From Minwuiaceae bacterium (GTDB lineage Bacteria > Pseudomonadota > Alphaproteobacteria > Minwuiales > Minwuiaceae): a stretch of DNA of 64,000 bases. Both the position numbers and the translations under genes were made by a program. The DNA is taken from the NCBI GenBank assembly GCA_028278525.1, contig JANQEE010000050.1, forward strand, positions 1-64,000. The letters are read 5' to 3'. Shown piece by piece: positions 4,728-29,173 of this stretch. Under the pieces are notes generated by a model that was given only the letters and a program-made list of their open reading frames with translations, had not been told where the DNA came from and searched no databases. Every line of letters starts with the position of its first letter. Positions within the stretch are counted from its first letter, which is position 1.

Positions 4728-5618
4728 TCATAGGCTGGAATCAGGTTCAACGCGCATTTGCATCAGCGCGGCGCGGACGATTGCGGATTCGGGATCCCCG
4801 AAAGCGTCATACATGTCGAAATGGTTCATGTTCGGCAGCTCAACCGCACTGCCGGCACCCGCAACCGCCTGTGCAAGCGCCCGCGACTGACGCTTGAATT
4901 CCTCCAACTCGTTCCCGCCCCAATACACGTCGATGGGCGGGTATGGCGCGGCGAGGCGGCGGATGGGGCTCAGCAAATCGGCATCCTGCGGCGAGAGGTT
5001 CAGATAGCTGTTGCGGGCGCTAAGGCGAACGGGTTCCAGATCGTACGGCCCGCTGACCAGCACAAATCCGGCGAACGCATCGCGCGGAAGGCCGGCAGCT
5101 GTCCGCCATGCATCGTCCAGAAGGCAGGTGGAAAGATGCGCGCCCGAAGAGTGTCCGGATACGAAGAGGCGCTCCGCGCCTTCGACATGGCGGCGAACGA
5201 ACAGCGCGGCACGGCGCACCTGGTCGACGACCGTATGAAGCGTTACATCGGGCACGAGTGAAAAATTGAGGACGGCCACCGTCGCGCCTTCGGCGCCCAG
5301 GCCGCGTACGACGAAACCGACATCGTCCCGCGTCATCGCACGCCACGCACCGCCATGCACATGCATGTGAACCGGCGCGCCCGGCCGGCCGGCATAGAGA
5401 TAAAGCGTCTCTTCGGAGCCTTCCCCATACCGCAAAGCGGCCGGCTGAAGATCCGCGCGCGTCTCGGCACTCACTTCGGCCCAGCGGGCCGCGTACTCAG
5501 GGAGGTTCGGGACGAGCGTCGTCTGGTCGTACTGGGCGTCCAGTTCAGCCTGTGTGAGGCCGCGCCACACCGCCGGAGCTTCACCGGCTCTACTCTCGGG
5601 ACCATCTTTGTTCGGCAT
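4728..5618 (-). CDS. alpha/beta hydrolase (esterase / arylformamidase-like)
   Basis: 296 residues. An oxyanion-hole HGGAW-type motif (MHVHGGAWRAMT, about residue 88) precedes the nucleophile elbow GHSSGAH near 155; the acid and histidine are probably in the C-terminal part (VYWGGNELEEF and MNHFDMYDAFG). The N-terminal AELDAQYDQTTLVP resembles kynurenine formamidase-like hydrolases, but tryptophan-pathway genes are absent, so only a general esterase role is assigned. It is first in the TRAP operon, which suggests it hydrolyses an ester or amide of the transported acid. Its stop overlaps an upstream ATG of the TAXI gene by four bases. Confidence 0.82.
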   Translation of the reverse strand: MPNKDGPESRAGEAPAVWRGLTQAELDAQYDQTTLVPNLPEYAARWAEVSAETRADLQPAALRYGEGSEETLYLYAGRPGAPVHMHVHGGAWRAMTRDDVGFVVRGLGAEGATVAVLNFSLVPDVTLHTVVDQVRRAALFVRRHVEGAERLFVSGHSSGAHLSTCLLDDAWRTAAGLPRDAFAGFVLVSGPYDLEPVRLSARNSYLNLSPQDADLLSPIRRLAAPYPPIDVYWGGNELEEFKRQSRALAQAVAGAGSAVELPNMNHFDMYDAFGDPESAIVRAALMQMRVEPDSSL

Positions 5619-5700
5619 CGGGTTGGATTTCCGGGCGGTTTTGCGACCAGAGCAATTATTTTAAGTCTAAAGTAATTGTGTGCACGTTTCCCCGCCCGGG

Positions 5701-6099
5701 TCAAACCGGTGCTCCCGGAACGGCAGTCTGCGAGAGAGCGTCGCGGTAAGCGGCGGCGTGCATGCCGATCGCACGGTCGATTGCGAAGGTACCGACGACA
5801 TGGGCGTGTCCGTTCTCGCCGCGCGGGCGCCAGGTGTCGTCGCGCAGCAAGGTCTCCAGGCCGGCGGCGAAATCGTCCTCGGAAGCGTGATAACGGAACG
5901 CGGAGGCGAAACCGTCGGTGTCCACGTGGCTGAGCACAGCGCACCGGTGCGCGGCCACCTCCAGAAACGCATTGGGCAGGCCTTCGCGGCTGGCGGTGTT
6001 GACCATCACCCAGCTTTCGCCGAGCACATCCGCATGCCGTGTCGAAGCGAACTGGTCGACGAAACCGGCCATCTCGAGGTTCGGCAAATGCGCATAGCG
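5701..6099 (-). pseudogene. glycosyltransferase (GT4) C-terminal remnant
   Basis: The frame encodes only the C-terminal donor-binding half of a GT-B fold family 4 glycosyltransferase. It reads HLPNLEMAGFVDQ, then ESWVMVNTASREGLPNAFLE, the characteristic E-x7-E region that contacts the nucleotide sugar, and AAHRCAVLS. The acceptor-binding N-terminal domain of about 200 residues is absent. The frame is open back to the TAG stop of the flippase gene at 6100-6102, and the homologous-looking residues begin right after that stop (RYAHLPNLE). This marks a deletion junction that joined the flippase 3' end to the middle of the GT gene. The only start in frame is a TTG at 6087 with no clear ribosome site, so a functional product is unlikely. 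Confidence 0.7.
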
Positions 6100-22911: not shown

Positions 22912-23373
22912 GTGGCCGATTTCGCCGCAGAAACCGCCGGGTTACCCGAAACCCCGGACGTCGCCGCTGCCGTCGCACGCGGCGTAATCCGTCTGCTGGG
23001 CGATATGGGCATCAGCGCGATCACCGAGATGCCGCTCAACAACGGTCGGCGCGTCGACGTCATGGGTATCGGCCGCGACGGCCGCGTCACGGTGATCGAG
23101 ATCAAGAGCTGCGAGAACGATTTCCGCACCGACCGGAAATGGCCTGAATATCTGCCCTATTGCGACTTCTTCTATTTCGCCGTGCCGGAGGGCTTCCCCC
23201 AGGAAATTCTGCCGGAGGAACCGGGCCTGATGGTCGCCGACCGGTTCGACGCGGTTATCCTGCGGCCGGCACCGGAGACGGCAATGAACGCGACGCGCCG
23301 GCGCAACGTGACCCTGCGGTTCGCCCGCGCCGCCGCCGAGCGCCTGGTGCGAGCGACCGACCAACGGCTCTAG
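22912..23373 (+). CDS. mmcB: MmcB family DNA repair protein
   Basis: 153 residues. It has the PD-(D/E)xK nuclease-like core of this family: ITEMPLNNGRRVDVMGIGRD, VTVIEIKSCENDFRTDRKW (acid plus E-x-K) and YCDFFYFAVPEGFPQEILP. MmcB is an alphaproteobacterial SOS gene product named from mitomycin C sensitivity and is required for DNA repair. The start is GTG with CAGGGAA upstream. A possible LexA site overlaps that region. It is followed by a low-GC intergenic tract. Confidence 0.85.
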   Translation: MADFAAETAGLPETPDVAAAVARGVIRLLGDMGISAITEMPLNNGRRVDVMGIGRDGRVTVIEIKSCENDFRTDRKWPEYLPYCDFFYFAVPEGFPQEILPEEPGLMVADRFDAVILRPAPETAMNATRRRNVTLRFARAAAERLVRATDQRL

Positions 23374-23656: not shown

Positions 23657-24895
23657 ATGCAGCGAAAGCGACCACAATCGAGTAATCAGGAAGCGCTTCT
23701 CGCCGAATATGCGGAGCGCATAAAAAAGCAGCCGGCCGGATGCCGGGCCGTGCACCTGCACCTATCGCAGCTGTGTTCCCATAACCGCCGCGCGCATCAC
23801 ATTCGCATAGCGGCCAACAGCCTCGAGGGGCTGGTTCAGCGGTCCGGCGGGGCGCTCTTCGTGCTTCGCAACAACGACATCGTCGCCACTTTCAGAGACG
23901 TCTCCGTCAGTGAGATCGACGAGACGGTCGTCAAATTGAGGTTCCTGTTCGGTGACGATCCGCTGGCCAAAGGAAAACCCCGCGACGGCCACGCGGGCTT
24001 CTGCACATGGTACGACTTGGCCTGGCAACACGGCGCCTTCGTGCGCCTGTCGCAGGAGCTGCTGCACCGGGCGTCGATTGCCGATGGCGCCATGCCGAGC
24101 GAAACGCCGACGCGCGGCGCCGCCAACGAGATTACCGAGCCGCTGACGGTCGAACATCTATGCCGCCTTGAGACCCAGCTTAGATCCGCCGACCTGGCCC
24201 CGCTGATCCGCCGCCAGCCGGTCTGCGCGCTGCCCCAGGCATCGGCACCGACGCCCGTGTTCTGCGAGCTGTTCGTGTCGATCAATGAGCTGCGCCGGAT
24301 GCTGATGCCGACGGTCGACCTCGGCGCCAGCCGCTGGCTGTTTCAGCACCTGACGGAGATGCTGGACAGGCGCCTGCTGCGCGTTTTGCCTGAAATCGCG
24401 TGCGAATCGTCAATGGCGACAAGCATCAACATCAATGTCGGCACGCTTCTGTCGCCCGCCTTTCTGCAGTTCGACCGGAAGCTGCGGTCGATGACCAAGA
24501 AGACCTTCGTGCTGGAATTGCAGCCGATCGATATCTTCGGCGATATGGGCACCTATCTGTTCGCCCGCGATTTCGTTCGCAATCGCGGATACCGGGTGTG
24601 CATGGATTCGCTAAGCCACCTTACCTTCCCGCTGGTCGACCGGCGCCATTTCGGCTTCGATTTCGAGAAGGTGTTCTGGTCGCCCGACATCGACAGCGAT
24701 TTCAACGACGAACGCCGCAGCAAGCTGGCGGAGGCGGTGCAAGCCGCCGGCGCCACGCGGGTAATCCTGGCCCATTGCGACAGCCCCCGCGCCGTCGAAT
24801 TCGGCCAGTCGATCGGGATCACCCTGTTCCAGGGCTGGCATATCGATAACATGGTCACGCAATCGCCGACCATTGCGGAGACATCCGCCGCCTAG
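23657..24895 (+). CDS. degenerate GGDEF/EAL-like protein, tandem paralog 1
   Basis: 412 residues. The N-terminal part (GGALFVLRNNDIVATFRDVS, then ETVVKLRFLFGDDPL and FCTWYDL) has the layout of a degenerate GGDEF domain. The C-terminal part follows the EAL barrel without the metal ligands: FVLELQPIDIFGDM, RNRGYRVCMDSLSHLTFPL where DDFG is expected, and GQSIGITLFQGWHID at the C-terminal helix. It is unlikely to make or break cyclic-di-GMP. The neighbour at 25156 is a clear paralog with the same domain order. Upstream lies an unusually AT-rich tract; the ribosome site is weak. Confidence 0.7.
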   Translation: MQRKRPQSSNQEALLAEYAERIKKQPAGCRAVHLHLSQLCSHNRRAHHIRIAANSLEGLVQRSGGALFVLRNNDIVATFRDVSVSEIDETVVKLRFLFGDDPLAKGKPRDGHAGFCTWYDLAWQHGAFVRLSQELLHRASIADGAMPSETPTRGAANEITEPLTVEHLCRLETQLRSADLAPLIRRQPVCALPQASAPTPVFCELFVSINELRRMLMPTVDLGASRWLFQHLTEMLDRRLLRVLPEIACESSMATSININVGTLLSPAFLQFDRKLRSMTKKTFVLELQPIDIFGDMGTYLFARDFVRNRGYRVCMDSLSHLTFPLVDRRHFGFDFEKVFWSPDIDSDFNDERRSKLAEAVQAAGATRVILAHCDSPRAVEFGQSIGITLFQGWHIDNMVTQSPTIAETSAA

Positions 24896-24995: not shown

Positions 24996-25155
24996 CCTAC
25001 AATCATCATCGCGCCCTAAAGATACATCCGAAGAGAACGATCAAAACGCCAGCCGAAATTAACAAAGTATATACCCGGGACATTCTATTTAGGTTCATCA
25101 AGGTGACCCTGAATTAAAGGCGTGTCGGTACTTGCCGACTAAATCCTTTCGATCG

Positions 25156-26382
25156 ATGCAGCAGACCGGGCCGGTAGACCAAGAAGCGCTTCTGGCGGAA
25201 TTCGCCGGGCAGGTTTGTAAGAACCCCGAAGGCTATCACGCGGTGCATCTGCCGCTATCCCGGCTGAAGGCGCAAAACCGCCGGGATCATCATATTCGGA
25301 TTGCGGCCAACAGCCTGGAGCCGCTGGTCGACCGGACCGACGGCGCCCTGTTCGTCCTGAGCAACAAAGACATCGTCGCCGCCTTCAGGGACGTCACGGT
25401 TAGCGAGGTCGACGAGGTCGTCGTAAAACTGCGGTACCTGTTCAGCGACGATCCGCTGGCAAACGAAGCCGACGGCGAAGGCGACACCGGATTCTGCACC
25501 TGGTACGACCTGTCCTGGCAGCACGGCGCGTTCAGCCGGCTGGCGAGCGACCTGCGCAAACACGCAAATGCGCGGCCCGACGGCTTGCCGGGCGATCTGC
25601 CGAGACAGGGGCACCGCGCGGAAGCCAACGAGCCGCTGACGCCCGAGCGCCTGAGCCGCCTGGAAGCCCATATACAGTCGGCCGACCTGAGCCCATTGAT
25701 CCGACGGCAATCGGTCTGCGCGATATCGAAGGACGGATCGCCGACACCGGTGTTCCGCGAGCTGTTCGTTTCGATCAACGAACTGCGCCGGACCATGCTG
25801 CCGACGGTCGACCTGGCGTCCGACCGATGGCTGTTTCAACGCCTGACGAAAGTGCTGGATCAGCGCCTGATGCGGGTGCTGCCGGAAATGGACATCGAGC
25901 TGTCGATCGCGACCAGCATAAACGTCAATATCAGCACCCTGCTGTCGCCGGCATTTTTGCAGTTCGACCGCAAACTGCGGGCGATTACCGAGAAGACCTT
26001 CGTGCTGGAGCTGCAGCCGATCGACGTCTTCGGCGACATGGGCGCCTATATGTTCGCGCGCGATTTCGTTCGCAACCGCGGCTATCGGGTCTGCATGGAC
26101 TCCCTGAACCACCTGACCTTCCCGCTGGTCGACAGGCGCCAATTCGGTTTCGATTTCGAGAAAGTGCTCTGGTCGCCGGACGGCGATTTCAACGAAAGGC
26201 GCCGGGACGCCCTGGCGACGACCGTTAAAGCGGCGGGCACCGCACGGGTGATCATGGCCCATTGCGATAGCCAGAACGCCCTGGAATTCGGCCAATCCAT
26301 CGGCATCACGCTGTTCCAGGGCTGGCATATCGACAACATGATCGGGCAGCCGATCAACGGCGGGACCCCGACGACCCACTAA
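25156..26382 (+). CDS. degenerate GGDEF/EAL-like protein, tandem paralog 2
   Basis: 408 residues, colinear with the gene at 23657 across its length. Shared stretches include HHIRIAANSLE, GALFVLSNKDIVAAFRDV, ELFVSINELRR and VRNRGYRVCMDSL. Again the position of the EAL metal ligands is not conserved (CMDSLNHLTFPLVDRR), and GQSIGITLFQGWHIDNM closes the barrel. The ATG at 25156 lines up with the start of paralog 1, so it is preferred to the TTG at 25132. The variable segment around residues 140-160 is where the two differ most. It is separated from paralog 1 by 260 bases, the long hairpin and AT-rich sequence, so it probably has its own promoter. Confidence 0.7.
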   Translation: MQQTGPVDQEALLAEFAGQVCKNPEGYHAVHLPLSRLKAQNRRDHHIRIAANSLEPLVDRTDGALFVLSNKDIVAAFRDVTVSEVDEVVVKLRYLFSDDPLANEADGEGDTGFCTWYDLSWQHGAFSRLASDLRKHANARPDGLPGDLPRQGHRAEANEPLTPERLSRLEAHIQSADLSPLIRRQSVCAISKDGSPTPVFRELFVSINELRRTMLPTVDLASDRWLFQRLTKVLDQRLMRVLPEMDIELSIATSINVNISTLLSPAFLQFDRKLRAITEKTFVLELQPIDVFGDMGAYMFARDFVRNRGYRVCMDSLNHLTFPLVDRRQFGFDFEKVLWSPDGDFNERRRDALATTVKAAGTARVIMAHCDSQNALEFGQSIGITLFQGWHIDNMIGQPINGGTPTTH

Positions 26383-26443: not shown

Positions 26444-27265
26444 TCAGATATCCAATTCCGCCTGGCCGTTGCCGCCCCCCGGCAGGTCCCTGGGCGCCCG
26501 GCCGACCCGCGGATCAGCGCTGTCGAAGCCGTCGAACGGTTCCGCCAGCCGCCGCTCCGCCATGGCGATGTAGTCCGGATTGATGTCGATGCCGACCGCA
26601 CGCCGGCCGAGCACCGTTGCGACCCGCGCCGTCGTGCCGCTGCCGACGAAGGGATCGAGCACCAGATCGCCGGGATCGGAGCTCGCCCGGACCACCCGTT
26701 CGATCAGGCCTTCCGGCTTCTGCGTCGGATGGTCGACCCGTTCGGCGCTGCAATAATGCACATGGGAGAACTGCCAGACATCGCCGGGATTGGCGCCGGC
26801 CATGTTGTTGCGTTTGCGGTAGTACTTCTGCGGAACCCGCACGTCGTCGAGATTGAACGTGATGTCCGACCCGTTGGAAAAGAACAGGATATCCTCGTGC
26901 CGCGGCGAGAACCCGCGCGTCCGGCCCATGCCCTGGGTGTAATGCCAGGTGATCCAGCCCTGAAAGGTCAGGCCGATATCTTCCTCGGCCATGACGAACA
27001 GGCGGGAGATAAAGCGCACCCCCATGAACATGTAAATCGAACCGCCGGGCCGCAGCAGGCGCACGGCGTGGCCAAGCCAGTCACGGGTGAAGGCTTCGTA
27101 GTCGGACCAGGCCCGAAGGTCGCGGTTGTTGCCGTAATTCTTGCCGAGATTGTAAGGCGGGTCGGCGACGATCAGGTCGACGGAGCCGTCGGCCAGGCCG
27201 GCCATCCGTTCGATCGCATCGCCGCAGATCAGCGTCGCCGCCGGCGGCGAGGCTTCGTCGCTCAT
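26444..27265 (-). CDS. beta-class site-specific DNA methyltransferase
   Basis: 273 residues. The catalytic motif DPPYNLGKNYGNN (about residues 35-47) comes before the S-adenosylmethionine motif LVLDPFVGSGTTARVA (about 215-230), the order of beta-class N6-adenine / N4-cytosine methyltransferases such as CcrM. HPTQKPEGLIERVV is also typical. The C-terminal RAMA domain of CcrM is absent, so it is not the cell-cycle enzyme itself. No restriction enzyme is adjacent, so it appears solitary. Its ATG forms an ATGA overlap with the stop of the RegA-like regulator, an unusual coupling to a redox system. Confidence 0.85.
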   Translation of the reverse strand: MSDEASPPAATLICGDAIERMAGLADGSVDLIVADPPYNLGKNYGNNRDLRAWSDYEAFTRDWLGHAVRLLRPGGSIYMFMGVRFISRLFVMAEEDIGLTFQGWITWHYTQGMGRTRGFSPRHEDILFFSNGSDITFNLDDVRVPQKYYRKRNNMAGANPGDVWQFSHVHYCSAERVDHPTQKPEGLIERVVRASSDPGDLVLDPFVGSGTTARVATVLGRRAVGIDINPDYIAMAERRLAEPFDGFDSADPRVGRAPRDLPGGGNGQAELDI

Positions 27266-27834
27266 CGCGGCGACCGCTTGGCCAGAATCCGCTGCAGGGT
27301 TCGGCGGTGCATGTTGAGCCGGCGCGCCGTCTCCGACACGTTGCGGCCGCAGAGTTCGTAGACCCGCTGAATATGCTCCCACCGGACACGGTCCGCCGAC
27401 ATGGGATTCTCCGGCGGCGGCGGCTTGGCATCGGCCGTGGCCATCAGGGCATCCACCACCGCGTCGGCGTCGGCCGGTTTGGCAAGGTAGTCGATCGCCC
27501 CCGCCTTGACCGCCGCGACCGCGGTGGCGATGTTGCCGTAGCCGGTCAAGACCACGATGCGGCAATCCGGCCGGGCCTTGAGCAGGGTGTCGACCACGTC
27601 CAGGCCGCTGCCGTCCTCCAGCCGCAGGTCGACCACGGCGAACGACGGCGGCATCGCCTGCACCGATGCGATGCCCGCCTCCACGCTGGCCGCCGTTGCG
27701 ACCTCGAAACCGCGGTTTTCCATGGCACGCGCCAGGCGATTCAGAAACGGGCCGTCGTCGTCCAACAGCAACAGGGACCGATCCTGTAGAGCGGCGATGT
27801 CCTCGCGCATGGCGCTCATGCTTGCAATTCCCAT
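27262..27834 (-). CDS. regA: RegA/PrrA/ActR-type redox response regulator
   Basis: 190 residues. The receiver domain has LLLLDDDGPFLNRLARAMEN, the phosphoacceptor Asp in FAVVDLRLEDGSG (about residue 62), the Thr of VLTGYGNIATAV and the Lys of DYLAKPADAD. After a proline hinge the C-terminal Fis-type helix-turn-helix reads CGRNVSETARRLNMHRRTLQ, the near-invariant DNA-binding end of this family. It controls photosynthesis, respiration, carbon and nitrogen fixation genes in relatives. It overlaps the end of regB and is followed by the coupled methyltransferase. The start is between 27843 (TTG) and 27810; the ATG at 27834 is chosen. Confidence 0.9.
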   Translation of the reverse strand: MGIASMSAMREDIAALQDRSLLLLDDDGPFLNRLARAMENRGFEVATAASVEAGIASVQAMPPSFAVVDLRLEDGSGLDVVDTLLKARPDCRIVVLTGYGNIATAVAAVKAGAIDYLAKPADADAVVDALMATADAKPPPPENPMSADRVRWEHIQRVYELCGRNVSETARRLNMHRRTLQRILAKRSPR

Positions 27835-27835
27835 T

Positions 27836-29173
27836 TCAGCCAACTTTCGCCTCTAATACGTCACGCTGCCAGATCACCGCAACCGTCGCGCCTTCGATCC
27901 GGCCGCCACGGCCGAGCCGATTCTCGAACCGAACCAGCGCGCCGGTCCGCTCCAGCAGGGTTTTGGCGATGAATACGCCAAGGCCCATGCCGCCGCTGCG
28001 CGGCCGGGTTGTGACATAAGGGTCGCCCAGAGCGCCGAGGATGTCGGACGGAATGCCCGGCCCGTCGTCGGCCACTTCGACGCGGACCTGCCTCTGGTCC
28101 CAATCGAGCTTTACCTGGATCTCGGACTGGGCGAAATCCGCGGCGTTCTCGATCAGATTGCTTAGTCCCTGCATGATCTCCGGACTGCGGGCCACGCGCG
28201 GCTGCGCACCCCGCAGCGCCGCGTCCGCCACATCGATGGTCAAATTTATGTCATCAATCAAATAGGGCTGTGCGGCCGCCTCGACAATCCCGGAAAGCGT
28301 TGTGGCGGCGAACGCCGAATCGTCCTCCTGCGGATCGCGGCTGATGCGCGCCAGAATCTCGCGGCAACGCTCGGTCTGGCTGGTCAGCAGCGCCACATCC
28401 TCGGCAAGCGGGCTGCCCTGCGGCAATTCGCGCGCCAGCTCCTTGACCACCAGCGTAATGGTGCCGAGCGGCGTGCCCAGTTCGTGCGCCGCGGCGGCGG
28501 CCAGACCGTCCAGCGCGGACAGGCGTTGTTCCCGCGACAGAGCCGCCTGCGCGGCGCCCAGCGCTTCCGACATGCGGCGGTTCTCCTCCGCCACGCGCCA
28601 AGCGTAGGCGCAGGTGAAGCCCATGCCGAGCAACAAAGCCGCCCAAATGCCGAAGATATAGGTCATCGGCAGAACCAGTCCGCCGCTGCTCCAGGGCAGG
28701 GGCTGGTGGAACAGGGCCAGCAGGCTGATGCACACCGCCGCCAGCGCCCCCAGCATGACGGTGCTGGTGAGCGACAGGATGGTCGCGGAGATGGTGACGG
28801 GCACCAGGAACAAAACGCAGAACGGGTTGGTCAGCCCACCGGTCAGATACAGCAGAACCGCCAGTTGGGCGATGTCGTAGCCGAGATACGCCGTCGCGCC
28901 GACATCGCCGAGCCGCGTCGAGGTGGGATGGCGGAGCGAGGCGACGATGTTCAACAGGGCCGAAAACGCCACCGCGACGGCCGCCGGCACGAACGGAAAC
29001 TCGAATTCCAGGCCGAACCGGACGAGCAACAGGGCCATCGCCTGCCCGGCGATTGCGACCCAGCGGATCAGCACCAGGGTCCTGAGCCTGACCCGGCCTT
29101 CGCCCGGCGACGCCGCCGCGACGCCTGCAAAAGTATCGGTTCGGAACGGTCCGGTTTCCGCGGAACTGCTCAT
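27836..29173 (-). CDS. regB: RegB/PrrB/ActS-type redox sensor histidine kinase
   Basis: 445 residues. Six hydrophobic segments fill the first 200 residues, with the quinone-sensing GGLTNPF loop in YLTGGLTNPFCVLFLVP. The H box is AAAAHELGTPLGTI. A Cys 40 residues after that His, in QTERCREILARI, matches the position of the redox-active Cys265 of Rhodobacter capsulatus RegB (His225). The kinase domain has N box NLIENAADFA and G boxes DDGPGIP and GGMGLGVFIAKTL. It phosphorylates RegA according to the redox state of the respiratory chain. The start at 29173 is chosen because the upstream extension would overlap the divergent gene. Confidence 0.92.
   Translation of the reverse strand: MSSSAETGPFRTDTFAGVAAASPGEGRVRLRTLVLIRWVAIAGQAMALLLVRFGLEFEFPFVPAAVAVAFSALLNIVASLRHPTSTRLGDVGATAYLGYDIAQLAVLLYLTGGLTNPFCVLFLVPVTISATILSLTSTVMLGALAAVCISLLALFHQPLPWSSGGLVLPMTYIFGIWAALLLGMGFTCAYAWRVAEENRRMSEALGAAQAALSREQRLSALDGLAAAAAHELGTPLGTITLVVKELARELPQGSPLAEDVALLTSQTERCREILARISRDPQEDDSAFAATTLSGIVEAAAQPYLIDDINLTIDVADAALRGAQPRVARSPEIMQGLSNLIENAADFAQSEIQVKLDWDQRQVRVEVADDGPGIPSDILGALGDPYVTTRPRSGGMGLGVFIAKTLLERTGALVRFENRLGRGGRIEGATVAVIWQRDVLEAKVG

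Follow-up and report, generated by a model that had tools for sequence, protein, structure and literature searches.

The closest described counterparts of the methyltransferase analysed here are solitary beta-class enzymes and one type II restriction-modification system. M.BceJIV of Burkholderia cenocepacia, which we take to be the same protein as BCAM0992, is a solitary beta-class N6-adenine methyltransferase that resembles the enzymes of type II restriction-modification systems and is encoded inside a host operon. In the accessible part of its description, BCAM0992 is presented as a GTWWAC methyltransferase whose gene lies between trpB and trpA (PMC7364216). The yhdJ gene of E. coli, which encodes another solitary beta-class enzyme of similar length, lies directly after fis, the gene of a Fis-type DNA-binding protein, and the CcrM enzyme of the alphaproteobacteria, a solitary beta-class methyltransferase as well, has GANTC as its site. 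The remaining point of reference is the HpaI-like system, in which a restriction gene of ~254 aa presumably lies upstream of the methyltransferase gene and the target is presumably GTTAAC. Capture of a solitary methyltransferase by a host operon is therefore already known (trp, fis), and a redox two-component operon is a new case. A 2026 review, in its accessible text, describes the way in which orphan methyltransferases arise as unresolved (PMC13076061), and the locus described here offers a clear case of such an origin: the same enzyme is found with a restriction partner in many phyla and behind regA without that partner in one lineage, with empty sites at hand for comparison.

In the window, by which we mean the whole stretch of 64,000 nucleotides that was analysed, regB (27836–29173), regA (27262–27834), and a gene for a 273-aa solitary beta-class (N6-adenine) methyltransferase with predicted target GTTAAC (26444–27265) lie head to tail, all on the minus strand. 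The regB product matches the curated model of the ActS/PrrB/RegB redox-sensitive histidine kinase with 543.3 bits (NF033792, cut-off 350) and the regA product that of the ActR/PrrA/RegA redox response regulator with 316.7 bits (NCBIfam NF033791, cut-off 250); with the two genes adjacent, they form a RegB/RegA two-component system that is predicted, from sequence, to sense redox state. Translation of regA starts at 27834 or at a later ATG, the match to the RegA model beginning at residue 18, and the gap between regB and regA is 1 nt with the first of these starts and wider with a later one. The stop codon of regA and the start codon of the methyltransferase share an ATGA that can be read directly at minus-strand bases 27262–27265, as the earlier note had stated. 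Its further claim, that regB, regA, and the methyltransferase make up a single translational unit, stands for the tight head-to-tail arrangement and the overlap between regA and the methyltransferase, and fails at the first junction, where regB and regA do not overlap. Downstream, the methyltransferase faces a convergent gene for a degenerate EAL-like protein (25132–26382, plus strand), and no restriction endonuclease gene is adjacent to it on either flank. The EAL-like protein belongs to a tandem pair on the plus strand (23657–24895 and 25132–26382), the members of which are 68% identical over 402 aa and match the EAL model below its cut-off; an MmcB-like DNA repair protein is encoded at 22912–23373 on the same strand (PF06319, 162.8 bits).

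We propose, with a probability of about 0.77, that the methyltransferase derives from the modification enzyme of an HpaI-like system, that it was inserted behind regA and is co-translated with it, and that it methylates GTTAAC as a second core methyltransferase. It would thus share with M.BceJIV its solitary state and its place inside a host operon, and differ from it in that the operon concerned is a redox two-component operon rather than a tryptophan operon. The HpaI-like system differs in turn by its restriction gene, which is missing here, with RegA in its place.

Descent from a restriction-modification system

The methyltransferase matches the N6/N4 DNA methylase family PF01555 with 207 bits (cut-off 26.7), and the order of its motifs, seen directly, is that of the beta class: the catalytic DPPY (residues 35–38; 27152–27163, minus strand), which all 23 aligned sequences share, comes before the AdoMet motif DPFVGSGTT (residues 204–212), whose DPFVGSG portion (residues 204–210 in the same 23-sequence alignment) corresponds to 26636–26656 on the minus strand. 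The DPPY motif and the nearest relatives suggest that adenine is the base methylated. The match to the CcrM model reaches 131.9 bits against a cut-off of 830 and is confined to model positions 4–249 of 350; the protein ends at the point where the C-terminal part of CcrM would begin and has no RAMA-like C-terminus. The YhdJ model is likewise matched below its cut-off (169.7 bits, cut-off 292). The one other PF01555 gene in the window's genome (G000; 5.95 Mb, 71 contigs) is of CcrM size, lies on contig C15, and encodes a protein 32.8% identical to the methyltransferase. The nearest solved enzyme and top structural match is M.BceJIV (PDB 8urk, 9c3s, 9c3u), which is 42% identical, whereas 14 aligned restriction-linked enzymes are 58–71% identical. 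The best conserved part is a putative target-recognition region (residues 104–184; 26714–26956, minus strand), which is common to the restriction-linked relatives, shows an identity of 0.70–0.86 to all 14 of those in the alignment, and is more conserved than the N and C parts in 22 of 22 comparisons. The structure model has a mean pLDDT of 68.8 in this region, and for that reason no residue-level claim is drawn from it.

Among the best 80 of 144 confirmed relatives found by sequence, the gene has a conserved restriction gene upstream in 53 loci, RegA directly upstream in 18, and neither in nine; RegA and the restriction gene never occur together at one of these 80 loci. Two of the nine, L013 and L003, are cut by contig edges at which a RegA tail is visible, namely the last 37 residues of the protein in L013 and five codons plus a stop, fitting the end of RegA, in L003. 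The others are L006, L046, L060, L063, L066, L080, and L028, the last of which (4989–5765, in a bin labelled Gracilibacteria) carries the methyltransferase directly after a gene that we took by eye to be argS-like, without restriction enzyme and without RegA. We read L028 as a second solitary capture of the same methyltransferase family. A truncated methyltransferase in G398 (L130) was considered and rejected, the stretch being full of N.

The conserved upstream gene of the restriction-linked relatives encodes a protein of ~255 aa that scores 303 bits against PDLC03492, a type II restriction enzyme model with a profile length of 254. A Pfam search with it gave no match; a D...DVK pattern is seen directly in its sequence and resembles, in our assessment, that of PD-(D/E)XK nucleases. 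Beyond the Sneathiella lineage, in many phyla, the methyltransferase family provides the modification half of type II restriction-modification systems, a relationship that the earlier note does not mention; the gene behind regA, judged by its sequence relationships, descends from such a modification gene. We take the parent system to be HpaI-like, with the gene sizes and the GTTAAC specificity of that system. A homology search detected no member of the partner restriction enzyme family in the window's genome, in G001, or in any of the 25 Sneathiella-family genomes, and the same query found its match in the positive control G117, which has the intact pair. The methyltransferase is in this sense solitary, its cognate restriction enzyme family being missing from the genome in a search limited to that family as distinct from unrelated endonucleases.

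The methyltransferase is present in all 25 Sneathiella-family genomes. In 24 of the 25 loci the gene immediately upstream, in the same orientation, is regA; the 25th, which we equate with the contig of L003, breaks off at a contig edge with a RegA-like tail still visible. With 25 of 25 genomes of one family concerned, the adjacency is not due to chance. The nine genomes of the window's own taxonomic order divide into the window's genome and G001, which have the methyltransferase, and seven genomes of one genus, belonging to the window's own family, which have regA and lack the methyltransferase, so that RegBA can do without it. In G001, the nearest relative of the window to carry the methyltransferase, the two genes, regA and the methyltransferase, fall on two contigs with overlapping ends and overlap as GTGA. 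Across the whole class, a close relative was found in seven of 385 genomes (the window's, G001, four of Sneathiella, and G117 with its intact pair), and no methyltransferase match came from another 28 loci of the class, examined over a distance of up to 1.5 kb behind regA; several of the loci and genomes counted here are the same genomes, and the counts overlap. The earlier note had described the enzyme as beta-class, without the RAMA domain of CcrM and without a restriction partner, and all of this holds, the last point now for the entire genome of the window; the survey of gene order that it had proposed finds the regA–methyltransferase order conserved in the lineage. The arrangement is a lineage trait, and as such more general than is visible from the window alone. 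Two PF01555 genes occur in G049, this methyltransferase and one of CcrM size; G347 has nine PF01555 matches, some of them fragments, where the remaining 24 genomes of the Sneathiella family have between two and five.

In a tree of 89 methyltransferase sequences, all 25 RegA-linked rows fall, together with the solitary L028, in one clade (98/93) placed among restriction-linked rows. The gene was probably captured behind regA on one or a few occasions. A tree of RegA and RegB (quick method, 48 rows) scatters the methyltransferase-bearing rows over three positions within a single supported clade, so that one capture requires losses in g3 and other lineages. A single capture with later losses fits these trees, and transfers between relatives into the same place behind regA may have contributed. 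Empty and filled sites can be compared directly: in L157 and L158, which lack the methyltransferase, a homologue of the convergent EAL-like gene follows regA with nothing between, whereas the methyltransferase stands between the two in Oceanibacterium (L027), as in the window. An HpaI-like M gene would accordingly have been inserted directly downstream of regA, without its restriction enzyme, in an ancestor of Sneathiella and its relatives, and would have been kept there under purifying selection, the dN/dS of the methyltransferase being 0.04–0.10 in five of six pairs, with dS saturated in the sixth.

Depletion of the predicted target GTTAAC

GTTAAC was fixed as the candidate target ahead of testing, from the HpaI-like sizes of the R and M genes. 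Depletion was assessed in three genomes of Sneathiella (G175, G394, and G049), sampled at 400 kb each, for 6-mers with at least 30 expected occurrences and, for GTTAAC, against a Markov expectation derived from GTTAA and TTAAC. GTTAAC is the most depleted 6-mer in all three (rank 1 of 4028, 4068, and 4082; ratios 0.39, 0.43, and 0.43), with 61 occurrences seen vs. 147 expected, in genomes that share ancestry and do not amount to three independent cases. The GANTC words of the CcrM site are the four most depleted of 1024 5-mers in the same genomes, and in Sneathiella coding DNA the ratio is 0.39 for both GTTAAC and GANTC, a parallel which suggests that stray methylated GTTAAC sites may be costly. 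Word depletion can in this way help to identify what an uncharacterised methyltransferase recognizes, the CcrM site serving as internal control. The depletion of GANTC in these three genomes is far stronger than in G000 or G003.

No depletion of GTTAAC is seen in 300 kb of E. coli K-12 (95 seen vs. 99.4 expected), in G003, which lacks the methyltransferase (8 vs. 4.7), or in the 28 class loci without it (5 vs. 5.9), controls that include no GC-matched alphaproteobacterium without the methyltransferase. In the window's own genome the signal is weak and not significant (10 vs. 15.8, rank 14 of 3822), and in G117, with its intact pair, 24 occurrences are seen vs. 51.2 expected (rank 31 of 3955) and other words are far more depleted. 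Pooled restriction-linked loci gave 33 vs. 50.2 (rank 24 of 4096), so that with the enzyme's restriction partner present the word is depleted without ranking first. A comparison among palindromes in pooled restriction-linked loci (33 vs. 57.6, rank 33 of 64) was discarded as a test of the target; it does not single out GTTAAC because palindromes are generally avoided there, and single genomes are cleaner, with the exception of G117. The site of YhdJ, ATGCAT, is hardly depleted (ratio 0.89 in G175 and 0.85 in G000). In the small genome of G117 (L160–L179), GGCGCC, GTGCAC, GGGCAC, and others are strongly depleted (ratios 0.02–0.1), which suggests further restriction systems there.

GTTAAC is on this evidence the likely target, and it is probably the same as that of the restriction pairs, since residues 104–184 are the best conserved part of the protein. 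It would fit the specificity of the HpaI-like system and is one case of the GTWWAC recognized by M.BceJIV. The enzyme would then methylate adenine in GTTAAC sites throughout the genome and be a second core methyltransferase in addition to CcrM, which it resembles in being solitary and of the beta class, conserved through a lineage, and accompanied by depletion of its predicted site, and from which it differs in its predicted target, its operon, and its lack of a C-terminal extension, in a genome that has a CcrM-size gene of its own.

Probable coupling to regA and its possible meaning

In the window and G001 alike, the methyltransferase start lies at −4 nt from the regA stop; Sneathiella-family loci range from −1 to +19 nt, and L029 has +10. 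What relatives have in common is the tight head-to-tail spacing, the ATGA itself varying among them. The Shine-Dalgarno energy before the methyltransferase is −3.0 kcal/mol or weaker at all 13 starts examined, those of the window and of 12 relatives, against a random background median of −2.5, and reaches −5.8 before regA, a moderate signal. A stop and start that overlap or are separated by a very short gap, with no ribosome-binding signal of the second gene's own, mark a coupled pair on sequence criteria, and co-translation of the methyltransferase with RegA is likely. The regBA transcript would extend through the methyltransferase gene, whose translation would probably depend on ribosomes finishing regA. 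A search of the operon for sigma-70-type promoters returned no match, which means little in this group.

The regBA operons are reported, in the accessible text of two studies, to be autoregulated (PMC5506826; PMC5435760), and on that basis redox-dependent levels of the methyltransferase are plausible at best. A redox-linked epigenetic switch, in line with the earlier note's proposal that genome methylation is tied to the redox state of the respiratory chain, would go further, with RegB/RegA activity shifting the expression of regBA and the methyltransferase, GTTAAC methylation following the respiratory chain, and methylation feeding back on expression; if methylation did follow RegBA, a direct line would run from the quinone pool to the methylome. 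The conserved placement behind regA in all 25 genomes of one family, the missing ribosome-binding signal, and the published autoregulation are in line with such a switch, as are the effects of other solitary methyltransferases on hypoxia survival or denitrification mentioned in the accessible part of a review (PMC13076061). We nonetheless consider it rather unlikely: autoregulation may merely hold RegBA constant, methyltransferases are often in excess, so that a change in amount may leave site occupancy unchanged, and regA persists in the seven same-family genomes that lack the methyltransferase. Among the matches listed in our literature search, no paper ties a methyltransferase to regA or regB. 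The operon may instead do no more than provide steady expression for an enzyme whose job is constant and unrelated to redox state, be it protection from GTTAAC cutters or a fixed genome mark, a tentative reading to which we would give not quite even odds. The gene's relatives argue for it, with the same family parked behind the argS-like gene in L028, the Burkholderia enzyme between trpB and trpA, and yhdJ after fis, in host operons that have no common physiology; on its own, however, steady expression leaves unexplained a clearance of GTTAAC in Sneathiella as strong as that of the CcrM site. Continued service to a restriction enzyme with a gene at some other locus, with which a recognition region as conserved as in the restriction-linked relatives would agree, is very improbable given that the partner family, the one searched for, has no homologue in G000, G001, or the 25 Sneathiella-family genomes.

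GTTAAC sites in promoters

The half-site of CtrA, a regulator of the cell cycle and of flagella, is TTAAC and is present within every GTTAAC; the word might be rare in Sneathiella for a reason of this kind, the true target of the methyltransferase being another sequence. A CtrA-like partner is found at four of 14 intergenic and two of 47 coding GTTAAC sites, a weak association that is exploratory and one of several tests made, and G003 and G004, both without the methyltransferase, likewise have GTTAAC ahead of a flagellin gene. The depletion, however, affects the whole palindrome when measured against GTTAA and TTAAC, which would not be expected from a TTAAC-binding protein, and it is absent from G003, though just 4.7 sites are expected there. 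We judge this explanation improbable and retain GTTAAC as the likely target.

A reservation of GTTAAC for promoters was tried and rejected. Fourteen of the 61 Sneathiella sites are intergenic, as compared with 11.6% for permuted words, and GTTAAC ranks 13 of 180 in this respect, other words being more intergenic; with genes called by a simple longest-ORF rule and each compartment given its own expectation, it is depleted in both (ratio 0.39 in coding and 0.58 in intergenic DNA). Two flagellin genes among the intergenic sites led to a post hoc count of flagellin loci, in which GTTAAC occurs within 400 nt upstream in nine of 30 (28 of the 30 with the full 400 nt available). The proportions are two of four loci in G003 and G004 and two of six in G000 and G001, and attribution of these upstream sites to the methyltransferase was rejected in view of the sites in genomes that lack it; these may be binding sites of another factor. 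A broader scheme, in which the captured enzyme acts as a second CcrM in Sneathiella and its relatives, with a GTTAAC mark set by the redox operon and the respiratory state acting via CtrA half-sites on cell-cycle and motility promoters, including those of flagellin, is speculative, and we would give it long odds.

GTTAAC lies 77–331 nt upstream of flagellin genes in L285–L293, L309, L310, L315, L317, L320, and L322, and in four Sneathiella genomes the distance is 174–177 nt.
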